Assembly: GCA_022562855.1 (NCBI GenBank)
Contig: JADFON010000078.1
Location: forward strand, 1 to 7,544
DNA length: 7,544 nt
Direction of reading: 5' to 3'
Source of the DNA: Candidatus Zhuqueibacterota bacterium
GTDB lineage: Bacteria > SM23-31
Below, piece by piece: positions 1 to 7,284 of this stretch (position 1 is its first letter; each line of letters starts with the position of its first letter). The notes beneath the pieces are model-generated. The model saw only the letters and a program-made list of their open reading frames with translations, had not been told where the DNA came from and did no database searches. The position numbers were made by a program, and so were the translations under genes.

Positions 1-1554
1 CTCACCGGCATTTGAATATGCAAGCGCAAAAGTAGTAATAATTCCACCAAGCGCAGCCTGGATTAAGTCTGTTTCCCGGTCATCTACGAATGTAATCTGG
101 TCGGAAGTACGGATGCTGATCGTTACGTCACCGGACGCTGCCAGATTTCTGACAATACCTGTCGCAATCGTCAATTGAACGGTCGTAAGCATGTCTAAGC
201 TTCCGTCATTTTTTGGCGCAAACTTGATTATACCGGAACTGGAATCGTTGACGTTAATCGTAAACTTACCTGTATCGGCAAAGCTCGCTACCGTCCAGGT
301 ATAATTCGATGAATCACCTACTCCTGCTTCTAAACTAAATTCGGCGGTAGGGAACCGAATATAGAGTGTATCAACCACTCCGGTTGCCCCCAAACCATTT
401 GTATCGAGTTTTGTACTTGTCCGGAACCACAAATCCACGGGCGTAAAGTTACCCGCGGTATTATCACTCAATATTACGGCGCCCTGACCCCCGTTAAATG
501 AGGATGCAGGGAACCAGTTTGAATTTATCACAAAAGTTATATCACCGCCTGAGGACTTGTCAAGCGCTATGGTATCACTTGAAGCGTCCAATGCCACGAC
601 CGTGAAATTGTCTAACGATGCGCTAATATCAGCGGAGGCAACACCCGAGGTATATGTTCTCTGGGCTACCGTATTAGGAGCGGTACCGGTAAAGATCGCC
701 GGGTTGTTTATGCTAAACGCGTTGCCAGATCCGATTTTGATCACTACAACCGCCCCGTCCGCTATTTTGCTCGAAGCGTTGAGCGGAATAGTCATGGTGC
801 GTCCGCTTGTCGAAATCGTTCCCAACGTGATAGCAGAATTGGCAACGGTAACTGTCACCGAATCTTTGAGGGTTGCGTCATATGTGAAACCGTCCGGTAG
901 AATTACCTTTAATTCACCGTCTTTAGGATACTGTCCGTTTGCAGTAAAACTCAGCGTTGTCCAATTCGTATTTTGGGCAAGAGTATCCGCATTAGTCACT
1001 GCAGTCAGGTCATTGTCATTAGGAGTAGTAAGCAAGTTATCGGTATCAGCATCTGATTGGAATACCGGCTGATCGCTGCTTCGAACCCGAAAACGGTAGT
1101 CAAAGGTGGCTCCACTACTTGTTTTGCCATTGTGGGTCGTTACATTCTGTATAATAACCGTAACCGTATCTCCCGGAACAAGAGCGTTTTCAGTTACAAG
1201 CGTCAGACGGACTACACCCGTTGAAGAAGTGTATCCAGCGGAAAAATCCGCTGTATTGCTCATCTGGAGACTCGGATTATTCGAAGAAAACGAATAATTC
1301 GCCGCAGTGGCTGCCGCCGTTTCGTCCACCTGGAAACTTGAAAGATCAATTTCCAGCCACTGTGTGTTTGTAAGCTGTGAGAACTCGCCCAGGATAATTC
1401 GCAGGGTATCGTTTGTTGCTTTACCCGGCGTACTGCTGGACACGCCGACGCCTGCTGGGCTGTCTAACCATTGTATCTGCCCAAATGCGTCTGCTCCGGA
1501 AATCAGTATTATTGCCATGAAGGCTGCCAAAACGAATACAGATTTCGACCTCAT
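1..1554 (-). CDS. Large exported surface protein with beta-sandwich-like repeats, N-terminal 518 residues (3' end outside window)
   Basis: One uninterrupted minus-strand frame of 518 codons runs from an ATG at 1554 off the left edge. The N-terminus is a signal peptide: basic n-region (MRSKS), hydrophobic stretch at residues 6-18, and a likely cleavage site after ADA at 21-23. The mature part has no cysteine, few Lys/Arg, and is rich in Asp, Ser, Thr, Asn and Val in alternating patterns typical of beta-sandwich domains. Residues about 24-157 end in a stretch (LVPGDTVTVIIQNVTTHNGK) resembling the end of bacterial Ig-like domains of the SbsA type. Residues about 160-315 contain another beta unit with KVILPDGFTYD, and further units follow from about 319 and 410. 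No catalytic motif is visible. A role in adhesion, S-layer or extracellular structure is inferred only. The missing C-terminus would show the anchoring or secretion route. An in-frame ATG at 1584 would add ten residues, but the ATG at 1554 has the better ribosome binding site. Confidence 0.88.
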   Translation of the reverse strand, partial: MRSKSVFVLAAFMAIILISGADAFGQIQWLDSPAGVGVSSSTPGKATNDTLRIILGEFSQLTNTQWLEIDLSSFQVDETAAATAANYSFSSNNPSLQMSNTADFSAGYTSSTGVVRLTLVTENALVPGDTVTVIIQNVTTHNGKTSSGATFDYRFRVRSSDQPVFQSDADTDNLLTTPNDNDLTAVTNADTLAQNTNWTTLSFTANGQYPKDGELKVILPDGFTYDATLKDSVTVTVANSAITLGTISTSGRTMTIPLNASSKIADGAVVVIKIGSGNAFSINNPAIFTGTAPNTVAQRTYTSGVASADISASLDNFTVVALDASSDTIALDKSSGGDITFVINSNWFPASSFNGGQGAVILSDNTAGNFTPVDLWFRTSTKLDTNGLGATGVVDTLYIRFPTAEFSLEAGVGDSSNYTWTVASFADTGKFTINVNDSSSGIIKFAPKNDGSLDMLTTVQLTIATGIVRNLAASGDVTISIRTSDQITFVDDRETDLIQAALGGIITTFALAYSNAGE

Positions 1555-1561
1555 TAGTATA

Positions 1562-1568
1562 CTCCTTT
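1562..1568 (-). promoter_or_regulatory. Strong Shine-Dalgarno for the surface protein
   Basis: On the minus strand AAAGGAG lies seven bases before the ATG at 1554, an ideal spacing. It favours this start over the in-frame ATG at 1584, which has only a weaker GAGG about nine bases ahead. It is the only clear Shine-Dalgarno sequence among the four visible starts in the window. Confidence 0.75.
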
Positions 1569-2095
1569 TTTGAATATGATTCATGTCTATTATCCTCAAT
1601 ATATTTTTACTCTTAATCTACTGTGATGAAAACTGTCGAACTTTTTTGTAAGCCTGCGAGGCATATAGCAATCCCATTGGGGAGCATATTCGTTCCCGCA
1701 AAGGTGTGATAAACTATATTGATTTGGGAAATAAATAAACATATCAAGGTCATCTATTCTGCCCAGACCTCCACAAGACTATATTAATTATCTAATAATC
1801 CATTGTAGATAACATAATCACAGGGATATCCGTTTTGTGCTGCAATCAGTCGGATAAATTCGTACCGGAGTATCCCATGCGTGTATTTTTCTTACCTATG
1901 TTATCGTCAACATTTAATAAAACTTTAAATGATTTACTTATTTTTTTCCAATATCTACAAAAGAATAATTCATATTGGAAATCACCTTTAGTCGATTTGA
2001 CTGATACAAGTTTTGCAACTATTATGCCAGAAGGTGTTTTAAAGGCGATATAAGGGGTGAAAACTGCAGGATATGGGTACTATTGAACAGTTGAT

Positions 2096-2155: not shown

Positions 2156-4795
2156 TTACGCAGGTGTGTTCCCGGAAGGACGTTTTCCGTCTAATATCTG
2201 CTTTAATTCGAATAAAACCCGGATGGCATCTTTAGGGGTGATCGAATCGGGATCGATATCGTTCAATTTCTTTCGTAGTAAGGTTTCTTCGAAGTGAAAT
2301 AAACTTATTTGCAGGTTGTCCAGTGCCTGCTTGTCATTTGAATCGGCTGATCCGCCACCGGTTATTCCGTCGAGCGTTAGTCCCATCGATTCGAGATTGG
2401 TGAGGATTTCACGGGCGCGGGATATTATAGTGGAAGGAATCCCTGACATTTGCGCAACATGAATACCATAGCTATGATCGCTGGTTCCTGTGATGATTTT
2501 CCTCAGAAACAGGACGGAATCTTCCCATTCCTTTACCTGTACATGAAAATTCCTGACTTTTGGCAGGTATTGTGTGATAGCTGTAATTTCGTGGTAATGC
2601 GTCGCGAACAGGGTTTTTGCGGCTATTGCGCGTGTATTGTGCAAATACTCTACAGTCGCCCATGCTATCGACAATCCGTCAAATGTGCTGGTACCGCGTC
2701 CGATTTCATCGAGCAGCAGGAGGCTCCGGTCGGTGGTGTTGTTTATGATATTAGCAAGCTCGGTCATTTCAACCAGGAAAGTGCTCTCCCCGCGGCTCAC
2801 ATCATCGTGAGCGCCCACGCGGGTAAATATTCTGTCAACGATACCGATTTGTGCTTTCCGGGCAGGTACGAAACTTCCTATTTGTGCCATCAAGACGCTC
2901 AGACCGACCTGTCGCAGAAATGTAGATTTTCCTGCCATGTTCGGTCCTGTGATGATGTGAATCTGATCATCCCGATGCCCGAATGCGTGATCGTTTGGGA
3001 TAAACGGTTCGTCGGACGGCAGCATTTTTTCAACAACCGGATGTCGTGATTCGACAAGGTGCAGTTCTTTCCCTTTGGTGATTTCCGGTTTGCAATAGCC
3101 ATTTTCCAGGGCAACTTTTGCAAGGTTGCAGAACACATCAAGCTGTGCTACGATATTCGCATTGACCTGTAATGATGCTGTCTCACCTGCTATTTTCAGC
3201 CTTAATTCCTCAAATAACTCCTGCTCCTTTAGAAGTATCCTTTCCTGGGCATTAAGAATTTGCTCTTCCTGTTCCTTCATTTCCGGTGTGATAAACCGCT
3301 CAGCATTAACAAGTGTTTGCTTACGGATATAATACTCGGGCACTTTTGATAGATGTGTATTTGTAACTTCTATATAATAGCCGAATATCTTGTTATAGTT
3401 TATTCGCAGCGATGGAATACCTGTTGCTGTGCGCTCTTTTGCCTGCAAATCAAGTATCCACTTTTTCCCCTTTTTTGAAATGTTTCTTAGATCATCGAGT
3501 TCTTTATCATACCCTTCGCGAATCAAACCGCCGTCCGAAATCGAAACCGGCGGAGTCTCAGAAAGCGCCCTGTCAATCTCATCAGCTACACCTTTCAGAG
3601 GTTTTATCTTTTTGAAACACTCCTTCAAGAGTCTCGCTTCCATATCCTGAATAAGTTGACGTATTTCCGGCATCAGACGCAGACTGCTGCCCAGTCCCCT
3701 GATATCTCGTCCATTCGCACGGTTGGCGTTTATCTTTGACGTAATCCTCTCGATATCGTTTATTTTTTTTAATAATCCCGACAGTTCTGCTCTGCGTGCG
3801 CTGTCGGTGTAAAATTCATCAACTGCCTGGAGTCTTTTTTGGATTTCATTTTTGTTTAAAAGCGGTCTCAACAGCCACGATTTCAAAAGCCGGGTTCCCA
3901 TTTTTGTAACGGTATGGTCAAGGACAGCCAGAAGACTTCCCTCCTTTTCACCTTGATTCATGGAGGCAACGATCTCCAGGTTTCTCCTTGTAGCCTGATC
4001 AAGAACCATGAAATCGGCAAGAAAATATACTTTCACGTTCTGGACATGCCCCAGCTTTCCTCCCTGGATACTTTGCAAATATTTGAGACTGGCACCTGCA
4101 CACGACACACCGGCACGGCACTCTTCGCTGCCAAAACCCTTGAGGGATACCGTGTTAAAATGGTCGGTCAGAGTATTATACGCGTAATCAAAGGAGAAAT
4201 AGTAGTCTTCTACCGGCGTGAACAATAGATCGTCCGTTCTTTTGAACAATGATTTTACCGTCTCCCCCTGTTCCATAGGATGCAGTATCTCTTTTGGATT
4301 CATACTCTCGGCATGGGCAATTATCTTATCGGCATTCCCTTCAGTCAGAAAAAACTCCCCGGTCGACACATCGAGACCTGCAAGACCTATCCTGTCATTT
4401 TGTTGACATATCGAGAGAAGATAATTATTTGATCCCGTATCTATGACATTTTCAGAAGTCACTGTTCCCGGCGTGATAACCTCTGTGACCGCTCTCTTTA
4501 CAATACCTATCGCTTTTTTTGGGTCCTCTATTTGTTCACAAATTGCTACTTTATGACCCGCTTTGAGCATTTTCGACAAGTATCGATCTACACTGTGATA
4601 AGGAAAACCCGCCAGGGGCACCTTTGCAGCTTTTCCGTGAGCCCTTGAAGTAAGCGTCAGACCCAGGACATCGGACGCGATATGCGCGTCTTCGTAAAAC
4701 ATCTCATAAAAATCCCCCATTCTGAAAAACAATATGGCGTCGGGATATTTCTTCTTTACGGAGGAATATTGCGCCATTAACGGTGTCGTTTTCAT
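2156..4795 (-). CDS. mutS: DNA mismatch repair ATPase MutS
   Basis: MutS binds base mismatches and small loops in newly replicated DNA, clamps round the duplex, and with ATP recruits MutL to start repair. The 879-residue product is full length (E. coli 853). The mismatch-recognition domain carries the Phe-X-Glu motif at F29/E31 within RMGDFYEMF. Connector, lever and clamp domains fill roughly 130-570. The ATPase domain has Walker A GPNMAGKST (617-625, Lys623), the signature loop SRGEST (667-672), Walker B with D696-E697 in LLLLDEIGRGTSTFDG, and the switch His733 in THYHE. QISLF at 829-833 matches the beta-clamp binding consensus, and the last 35 residues resemble the C-terminal dimer/tetramer helices. 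All key residues are present, so it should be functional. An in-frame TGA directly before the ATG at 4795 fixes the start; no Shine-Dalgarno is evident. No mutL is adjacent. It is not the MutS2 type: the mismatch-recognition domain is present and no Smr domain is seen. Confidence 0.98.
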   Translation of the reverse strand: MKTTPLMAQYSSVKKKYPDAILFFRMGDFYEMFYEDAHIASDVLGLTLTSRAHGKAAKVPLAGFPYHSVDRYLSKMLKAGHKVAICEQIEDPKKAIGIVKRAVTEVITPGTVTSENVIDTGSNNYLLSICQQNDRIGLAGLDVSTGEFFLTEGNADKIIAHAESMNPKEILHPMEQGETVKSLFKRTDDLLFTPVEDYYFSFDYAYNTLTDHFNTVSLKGFGSEECRAGVSCAGASLKYLQSIQGGKLGHVQNVKVYFLADFMVLDQATRRNLEIVASMNQGEKEGSLLAVLDHTVTKMGTRLLKSWLLRPLLNKNEIQKRLQAVDEFYTDSARRAELSGLLKKINDIERITSKINANRANGRDIRGLGSSLRLMPEIRQLIQDMEARLLKECFKKIKPLKGVADEIDRALSETPPVSISDGGLIREGYDKELDDLRNISKKGKKWILDLQAKERTATGIPSLRINYNKIFGYYIEVTNTHLSKVPEYYIRKQTLVNAERFITPEMKEQEEQILNAQERILLKEQELFEELRLKIAGETASLQVNANIVAQLDVFCNLAKVALENGYCKPEITKGKELHLVESRHPVVEKMLPSDEPFIPNDHAFGHRDDQIHIITGPNMAGKSTFLRQVGLSVLMAQIGSFVPARKAQIGIVDRIFTRVGAHDDVSRGESTFLVEMTELANIINNTTDRSLLLLDEIGRGTSTFDGLSIAWATVEYLHNTRAIAAKTLFATHYHEITAITQYLPKVRNFHVQVKEWEDSVLFLRKIITGTSDHSYGIHVAQMSGIPSTIISRAREILTNLESMGLTLDGITGGGSADSNDKQALDNLQISLFHFEETLLRKKLNDIDPDSITPKDAIRVLFELKQILDGKRPSGNTPA

Positions 4796-4880
4796 TCAGG
4801 AAATATGGAAAGAATTCAGAGATTTACAATGATGGAATTACCGTTCTAAAGATAAGAAATTTTGGTCGCCAAAGAAACAG
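4796..4880 (-). promoter_or_regulatory. mutS: Probable mutS leader and promoter region (elements not resolved)
   Basis: mutS is 563 bp from the next upstream gene on its strand, so it needs a promoter here or further back. The minus strand at about 4848-4855 reads TATCTTTA, close to the Bacteroidetes -7 consensus TAnnTTTG, and TTTG lies 15 bases ahead, shorter than the usual spacing. This is a weak match and could be chance in an AT-rich relic. Confidence 0.2.
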
Positions 4881-5318
4881 ATTTTTGGCTCAAATCTCTC
4901 ACAACAAATTTTCAAATGAAATCACAAGCCATTTTTGTACGCCAACGGTCTGAGTTGAACGTGCGAAAAACTGCCACTTTGTACCGTTTCATAATTCCAA
5001 ATTTAATCTCAAATACGAAAACCAGTTAAAACAAGTACTTAGTCAAATGAAAATGAGTATCGTCTTTGAACCGCGGAATGCCGATTTTTCAAAGATCGAC
5101 AATGAACGAGGCTGATATAAATAAAGTAAAGCACAAGACATTTGTAGAAGCAAACGAGGAAGGTACAGCAATTACAGCGGTTACAAGTGCAGGAATAGCC
5201 CCCACGAGTTCACCTCCGGCATTTTATCGTCAACCGCTCTTTTGTCTTTATGATACGGGAGAGATTGTCAAATACGATATTGTTTATCGGTAAGATCATT
5301 GATCCGGTAAATGGGTAA
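4805..5318 (+). pseudogene. Decayed serpin (serine protease inhibitor) gene, C-terminal part
   Basis: Stitching three frames gives the C-terminal part of a serpin, a suicide inhibitor whose exposed reactive loop traps proteases. In order: MMELPF (4829-4846), matching the family's ELPY; two in-frame stops (4847, 4853); a segment with AKETD and SLTTN; FIIP (4988-4999). A one-base loss in an A-run near 5000 then shifts to KFNLKYENQLKQVL and NADFSKI. A second shift near 5100-5115 leads to NKVKHKTFVEANEEGT, the conserved serpin hinge (NEEGT at about 5153-5167), then the reactive loop and SSPPAFYRQPLFCLYDTG. A third shift near 5270 gives ILFIGKIIDPVNG and a natural stop at 5316-5318, the typical serpin ending. 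The five residues between ELPF and ILVAKE are fewer than usual, suggesting an internal deletion as well. The 5' half is absent: mutS coding begins about 10 bp away. It points toward the SPOR gene (convergent). It cannot make a working inhibitor. Confidence 0.9.
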
Positions 5319-5358
5319 AAACGGTTTGGAATTGGAAGGATTTAAAGAAAAAAATGGG

Positions 5359-6093
5359 TTAGTTTTTTGTTGTCACAATGATATTTTCTCTTAACCGGTA
5401 CCGTATTCTTAGTTCTTCACGTTTTTTTTCGGCTTCTTCCTTGTTTTTGAATTCTCCCGACCGGACTTTATAGAGTTTACGTTGTCCCACCTGTTGTTCG
5501 GACAAGAATACCTGCGACACTCCGAGATTTCTCAGGTATGTTAGAAAAGTACGCGCCCTCGATTCAGTGCCGAACGCACCGAATTGGAGCGTATATATTA
5601 CTTCCGGTTCTTCCTTATTAATTCCTCCATCATCCTGACTTCTTGTCTCTTCGAACTCCCGGTTAAAATATCTGTTGACCGCACTATACATATCCCTGGC
5701 TTCATCCTGAAGGTCGGAATCGGGAAACTCCGTTATGAACCTGCTGACACTCGACCCACATTCCTCATATTGGTCTTTTGCATAAAGAAACTGGCACATC
5801 TTCCAGAGCGCCCGCTCATAAAGAGGATTATCCGGGGAAAACGCATTGAGCTGCCGGTACAACGAAAACGCCCGGTCGCCATTCTGCTCAAATACTGCGC
5901 TCAAAAAGAGGTATTCCGGTTTATCGTAATCCTTATCCTTTAATTCAATCAATGCGCTTCGAACGTTGTCGAGCCGTCCCCTCTCATAATCACGAATCGC
6001 TGAATCGATGTCCTGGGCAAAAAGACCAACTGTACCCGGCAGTATACCGGCAATGATGGTCGGCAGCAGAATCATCTTATAGTATTTATTCAT
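5359..6093 (-). CDS. Exported SPOR-domain protein with helical repeats
   Basis: A 244-residue protein with a signal peptide (MNKYYK, then hydrophobic 7-25, likely cut after LFA at 24-26); there is no lipobox cysteine, so it is probably soluble in the periplasm. Residues about 30-150 are helical and TPR-like, with a YERALWKMCQFLYAKDQYEE segment and FPDS, resembling the repeat region of YbgF/CpoB-type proteins. Residues about 164-241 form a SPOR domain: YTLQFGAFGTESRARTFL, then LGV, then LYKVRSGEFKNKEEAEKK. SPOR domains bind peptidoglycan stripped of stem peptides, often at division sites. The start is 27 bp after the lapB-like stop, so the genes are probably co-transcribed; no Shine-Dalgarno is visible (AT-rich TTTAAATTTTATT precedes the ATG). 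A role in cell-wall remodelling or division is inferred from the domain; the specific partner is unknown. Confidence 0.9.
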   Translation of the reverse strand: MNKYYKMILLPTIIAGILPGTVGLFAQDIDSAIRDYERGRLDNVRSALIELKDKDYDKPEYLFLSAVFEQNGDRAFSLYRQLNAFSPDNPLYERALWKMCQFLYAKDQYEECGSSVSRFITEFPDSDLQDEARDMYSAVNRYFNREFEETRSQDDGGINKEEPEVIYTLQFGAFGTESRARTFLTYLRNLGVSQVFLSEQQVGQRKLYKVRSGEFKNKEEAEKKREELRIRYRLRENIIVTTKN

Positions 6094-6120: not shown

Positions 6121-7284
6121 TTATAATTCAAAAGCATCCCACTTTTCACAGGAAGGACATTGAATAAGAATTTCTGATACGGAATCGCCGCAAAACCTGC
6201 ATTTATATGACGGTGAATTCGAGACTAATTCAGCGAGAGACAGCGCCTTTTCTTTTATGACTTGTATATCGTCAGATTTGTCTAAATACATTATTAAATT
6301 TTTCAAACCGTCCGGAGAATGAGGATTGATCCGAAAACTTCTTTCGGTCATCTCCATGGCTTTTTCTTTGTCCCCCTTTTTGAAAAAGATTTCGCCAAGT
6401 TTAAGCAATGCCTGGTAATTGTCATTGTCTTTTTCTATCATATCTGTATAAAATTCCTCCATTGCGGCATAATTTCCCGATTCAAAATATGCCGAATCGA
6501 GAAAATCGAATACCAAAAAAGACTTCAGAGGAACAACATCGGCAAATTCGCGCCAAACCTTGACAGCATCATCCTGTCTGTCTTCTTTTGCATAAGCATC
6601 GCCGAGATACAAATACGCCGCGGGAAAGGATTTATCGAGTTTGATTGCCTCTTTGAAAACTAAACGGGCATCGTGATACTCTCCCCTTTCTACAAGTATC
6701 CTGCCATGTGATATTTTATAAAGGGCAAGTTGATGATCGACATCCCCGGCTTTGTCAGGATTTGCCTTGAGATATTTGAATGCGTTTTTGAAATCCTTTT
6801 TATGCTCATAAATTACAGGTTGAAAATCCAACGCCCACCTGTTTTTCGGGTCGAGGGAAAGTAATTTTTCGCAATAACTCAATGCCTCGTCATACTTTTT
6901 AGAATCGAATAAGTCATTGACAATGTTACGGTATAGGTCCTTGAGGTGATTGTCTTTAAGGCAGGCTCTTATGGTAAGTTCTTTGTGGATTTTCAATGCC
7001 TGCTCCGGATTGTCGTTCAAACGATAAAGCATACCGAGCTTTATATAGGCATCAATATTATTTGTATCGAAACGGACGGCTTCTTTAAAAAGTTCCTTTG
7101 CCCGTTCATTATTACCTGCAATTAGTTCATTAAGCGCTTCAACATACGCATTTGCCTTGAGAATACGGCGTTCTCTTTTATTCCTGATATTATATCGAAA
7201 AGCCAATAAGCCGAAAAACAGAATAATTACGACCGTACCGATAATTATGATGTTTGTCCCGCTAATAAAATCTACACTTTCCAT
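6121..7284 (-). CDS. lapB: LapB/YciM-like lipopolysaccharide assembly protein
   Basis: The 387-residue protein has the whole LapB layout (E. coli LapB: 389 residues). One N-terminal membrane helix lies at about 10-29 (IIIIGTVVIILFFGLLAF), followed by Arg/Lys-rich residues that should face the cytoplasm. TPR repeats cover about 43-340, starting with YVEALNELIAGNNERAKELF and including LGMLYRLNDNPEQALKIHKE. A C-terminal rubredoxin-like zinc ribbon follows, with C362-x2-C365 and C376-x2-C379 and then a Trp. In E. coli LapB controls LPS synthesis by bringing LpxC to the protease FtsH and helps coordinate LPS assembly at the inner membrane; the same task here is inferred from family and context. 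The upstream neighbour is lapA-like, as in E. coli, with 44 bp between them. No clear Shine-Dalgarno precedes the ATG. A generic TPR protein is unlikely given the membrane helix and ribbon together. Confidence 0.88.
   Translation of the reverse strand: MESVDFISGTNIIIIGTVVIILFFGLLAFRYNIRNKRERRILKANAYVEALNELIAGNNERAKELFKEAVRFDTNNIDAYIKLGMLYRLNDNPEQALKIHKELTIRACLKDNHLKDLYRNIVNDLFDSKKYDEALSYCEKLLSLDPKNRWALDFQPVIYEHKKDFKNAFKYLKANPDKAGDVDHQLALYKISHGRILVERGEYHDARLVFKEAIKLDKSFPAAYLYLGDAYAKEDRQDDAVKVWREFADVVPLKSFLVFDFLDSAYFESGNYAAMEEFYTDMIEKDNDNYQALLKLGEIFFKKGDKEKAMEMTERSFRINPHSPDGLKNLIMYLDKSDDIQVIKEKALSLAELVSNSPSYKCRFCGDSVSEILIQCPSCEKWDAFEL

Follow-up and report, generated by a model that had tools for sequence, protein, structure and literature searches.

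Does the interval just upstream of mutS hold the remains of a serpin gene and, if so, how did they come to lie there? The window, that is, the whole stretch of DNA that was analysed, is 7,544 nucleotides long and constitutes an entire contig (C84) of a 2.51 Mb genome assembled into 491 contigs and 80% complete. A read-through profile search of this genome with the serpin family PF00079 gave matches only at this site, in three overlapping pieces:

5202-5306, plus strand: PF00079 match, E 1.0e-6, profile positions 336-370
4820-5224, plus strand: PF00079 match, E 4.0e-6, profile positions 208-343, with 5 stops
4966-5106, plus strand: PF00079 match, E 6.8e-5, profile positions 256-301

The best single-frame piece, at 29 bits, passes the curated PF00079 cut-off of 27 bits, and the search found no second serpin in the 491 contigs of the 80% complete genome. 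An intact serpin from a genome of the same family (G002c, of genome G002) aligns by tblastn to three co-linear pieces (4999-5100, 5117-5224 and 5223-5309) with a joint E of 1.7e-19. The same three-piece match is given by intact serpins of further genomes. A profile was built from 15 full-length serpins and one C-terminal fragment, 16 in all; in a frame-aware alignment to it the locus scored 192.5. Sixty dinucleotide shuffles scored 21.1 +/- 2.8 (maximum 29.1), and the reverse strand 21.8. G002c is the nearest intact relative, with 53% identity over 103 residues. The original prediction had read a co-linear serpin C-terminus in three plus-strand frames and had proposed a search against PF00079 and serpins as a check; serpin matches were obtained in all three frames. 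The locus is thus confirmed as a decayed serpin C-terminus, about the last 104 residues, read in three co-linear frames. It lies where it had been placed, just upstream of mutS and on the opposite strand, with the mutS start codon about 20 bp away. The relic can be divided as follows:

4817-4846, plus strand: probable upstream piece QRFTMMELPF, corresponding to residues ~259-268 of G002c (421 aa); profile alignment score 21.7
4847-4998, plus strand: scrambled stretch of 152 bp, each of the three frames interrupted by stops, from the stop list
4999-5112, plus strand: first clear frame, KFNLKYENQLKQVLSQMKMSIVFEPRNADFSKIDNERG; tblastn against G002c and other intact serpins, profile alignment
5117-5221, plus strand: second frame, with the hinge and reactive-centre-loop region, INKVKHKTFVEANEEGTAITAVTSAGIAPTSSPPA; tblastn, profile alignment
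5156-5182, plus strand: degraded hinge P17-P9, EEGTAITAV; alignment against ExGTEAAAA
5223-5318, plus strand: third frame, C-terminal strands, FIVNRSFVFMIRERLSNTILFIGKIIDPVNG, with the native stop TAA at 5316-5318; tblastn, profile alignment

The clear part, 4999-5318, aligns to a serpin of 421 residues from residue 316 to ~421. Its frame changes twice, at about 5101-5116 and at about 5213-5223, and the serpin-reading frames contain no stop before the native TAA. The first ~258 residues, about 60% of the gene, are missing, and the mutS start codon is reached on the other strand at 4795. Instead of a complete serpin domain of ~350-400 residues in one open frame, the locus holds at most residues ~259-421 of 421, spread over three frames.

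The piece at 4817-4846, which ends in ELPF directly before a TAA at 4847, is a probable part of the relic. Its score exceeds those of all 300 shuffles when the alignment is restricted to residues 230-315, the segment expected there, and it is called probable because it does so only within that segment. Its support is mostly positional, since 8 of 120 shuffles equal it when aligned against residues 1-315. The distance to the next piece is 152 bp, against 141 expected, and frame-aware profile alignment found no significant serpin alignment within the intervening 4847-4998. The earlier count of two stops and at least three frameshifts holds only if this weak upstream piece is included; the clear part has two shifts and no internal stop. 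The accompanying expectation that gene callers would miss the relic was borne out: the 75-residue open frame at 5066-5293 reaches only 24 bits against the serpin cut-off of 27.

The erosion extends to conserved sites. The hinge consensus of inhibitory serpins, P17-P9, is given as ExGTEAAAA in a passage of the main phylogenetic study of the family (PMC8233489), and the relic reads EEGTAITAV at these positions. It keeps 20 of 26 conserved columns, whereas almost every intact serpin keeps 24-26 of about 27; the six lost columns include hinge alanines and the proline of RPF. One intact serpin, from genome G052, keeps about as few (21 of 28). Like other bacterial serpins (PF00079, MEROPS I4), for example miropin of Tannerella forsythia (PDB 5ncs), the relic has the hinge, the loop and the last strands in order along its ~104 C-terminal residues, and 5ncs is the best match of G002c among solved structures (E 2.5e-71). 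Unlike them, it lacks the N-terminal 60%, occupies three frames and has EEGTAITAV in place of ExGTEAAAA. Judged from its sequence, neither folding nor inhibition can be expected of it. Recognisable homology combined with a disabling truncation and frame breaks is what defines a bacterial pseudogene, and all of these are present. Ordinary bacterial pseudogenes likewise show 5' truncation, small insertions and deletions, drifted conserved sites and a position on the opposite strand in an intergenic gap, and the relic differs from them in nothing beyond the usual.

The genes surrounding the relic are all on the minus strand:

1-1599, minus strand: N-terminal 533 residues of a large secreted-type protein; no Pfam match
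2156-4795, minus strand: mutS, 879 aa, intact; Pfam MutS I-V all above cut-off, 64% identity to MutS of G002
5359-6093, minus strand: SPOR-domain protein, 244 aa, intact, adjoining mutS in G002 and G006; Pfam SPOR E 2.8e-12, synteny
6121-7284, minus strand: TPR protein, 387 aa, intact, in an order common to G002 and G006; Pfam, synteny

On contig C133 of G002 the order TPR-SPOR-mutS, followed by a large secreted-type protein, is the same as in the window, and the ~76 bp between SPOR and mutS contain no serpin. The more distant G006 also has TPR-SPOR-mutS, with a SPOR-mutS gap of ~240 bp that is likewise free of serpin. The site occupied by the relic is therefore empty in both relatives, suggesting that the serpin copy, or a piece of it, most likely entered the site in the lineage of the window. 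The comparison of the junction comprised G002 and G006. G001 was left out because its mutS contig begins inside mutS and a search of that genome found no SPOR homologue; its TPR-repeat matches were only weak. A protein resembling the secreted-type protein at 1-1599 is found downstream of mutS in both G002 and G003, with about 38-40% identity.

An intact copy in relatives, which the original prediction had suggested looking for, is found away from the junction. G002 has three tandem serpins of 421 codons each on contig C307 (L114:1237-5043), and G006 has one on contig C85, away from SPOR-mutS. The end of the G001 serpin adjoins other genes. The start of G002c resembles a lipoprotein signal (LFITLNCSS).

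The remaining sequence of the window offers few landmarks. A search for mobile-element traces and for direct or inverted repeats around the relic found only one chance-like 12-bp inverted pair. The window contains no RNA families or tRNAs, and the other intergenic gap, 1600-2155, has no meaningful match to the relatives. Scanning 4700-5500 for promoters and terminators yielded nothing above the level of shuffled sequence, which leaves no argument for a role of the relic as a mutS promoter.

Very probably, then, the relic is a 5'-truncated, decaying serpin pseudogene, left after a serpin gene or its 3' half came between SPOR and mutS in the lineage of the window. From the homology, the truncation, the two frame breaks, the empty site in two relatives and the intact neighbours we infer the following history and origin of the copy. 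A serpin gene or its 3' half, related to the lipoprotein-type serpins of the same family, would have come between SPOR and mutS in the opposite orientation, and its first 60% would have been deleted or would never have arrived. Insertion of part of the gene, or of all of it followed by a deletion, would leave the same picture. Small insertions and deletions would afterwards have split the remainder into three frames, while the hinge and other conserved sites drifted. No serpin is made from the locus today, and the relic is most likely without function.

Alternatively, a serpin might have been ancestral at the SPOR-mutS junction, lost independently in G002 and G006 and decaying in the lineage of the window. 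Serpins occur in G001, G002 and G004, which belong to the same class, and in G006, and may thus be old in the group. However, neither junction retains any trace of one, in G002 the intact serpins are found on a different contig with different neighbours, and at least two clean losses would be needed, which makes an ancestral serpin improbable. Still less probable is an intact gene broken by assembly or sequencing errors. The assembly is MAG-like, with its 491 contigs and 80% completeness, but ~6.1 kb of coding sequence on the same contig (mutS, SPOR, TPR and the 533-residue frame) are free of frame breaks, whereas in the relic 311 bp contain two breaks and a further 152 bp are scrambled. Sequencing error is unlikely because these neighbouring genes are intact. 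Moreover, the first 258 residues are absent even though both flanks match the gene order of G002, and the substitutions at conserved serpin residues are unexplained by insertion or deletion errors. A remaining use for pieces of the relic, such as a short peptide or a frameshifted product, is hardly credible: the 75-residue frame is open, but it departs from the serpin frame near position 5222 and covers only part of the C-terminus, the N-terminus is gone, and the hinge and conserved sites have drifted.

Two broader readings of the decayed pseudogene go further than the evidence shows. Bacterial serpins had been described as patchily distributed and often regarded as acquired, but the closest serpin to the relic is that of G002 itself, with which it groups weakly (support 66) and within the same family rather than outside the host lineage; a copy made internally would fit the sequence as well as an outside acquisition. 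The relic had also been taken as the loss of a serpin from the organism. With an assembly only 80% complete, and with three intact tandem copies in G002, a genome of the same family, such a loss cannot be claimed.

The decay had been described as fairly recent. Over the aligned parts, the relic and G002c differ by 0.29/0.24/0.66 at the first, second and third codon positions, and the intact pair G002c-G006 by 0.32, 0.18 and 0.66. Differences concentrated at third positions, as between intact serpins, indicate that most of the divergence accrued while the gene was still coding. This coding-like pattern favours the description, whereas the eroded conserved positions and the long branch of the relic (0.85, against 0.19 for G002c) speak against it. 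Among the genomes compared, the closest of which belong to the same family, with no same-genus genome found for dating, the description is only partly supported: compared with the divergence from G002, the decay probably came late.

Serpin matches are present in 93 of 386 sampled genomes, and several are themselves damaged:

G059:C12:34352-35287 (L149): second broken serpin, profile positions 5-131 then 178-368, seven stops; adjoins an intact serpin
G156:C54:2203-2664 (L151:1203-1664): internally deleted serpin, 154-residue open frame, residues ~79-143 joined to ~357-420
G146:C1, ~1642515-1642900 (L153:1015-1397): remnant of a serpin N-terminus, split over two frames, in a chromosome assembled as a single contig
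G211:C124:46945-47091 (L152): C-terminal ~48 residues alone, beginning at the hinge, well inside a contig of 79 kb

Like the relic, these pieces lie inside contigs and are truncated, broken or internally deleted; they belong to other families and sites and were examined in less depth. The window is thus not alone in carrying a serpin relic.

The relic is a real but ordinary pseudogene, a new example of a known family. A literature search, mostly of titles and abstracts, turned up nothing devoted to serpin pseudogenes of bacteria. The phylogenetic study cited above (PMC8233489) in one passage calls the loss of serpins in most bacteria perplexing. Relics are direct traces of such loss, hidden from gene annotation, and read-through profile searches allow them to be counted. 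The main use of the present one is as a single direct example of serpin loss in bacteria, and the picture of serpin function is unchanged by it. It is conceivable, as a tentative proposal, that in uncultured bacteria serpins are often copied locally and then decay, and turn over in this way. The relic would then be one such copy, derived from a family-specific lipoprotein serpin, that reached the flank of mutS and died there and, together with the relics of other lineages, would suggest that the patchy distribution of bacterial serpins arises largely from ongoing gain and loss unseen by annotation.
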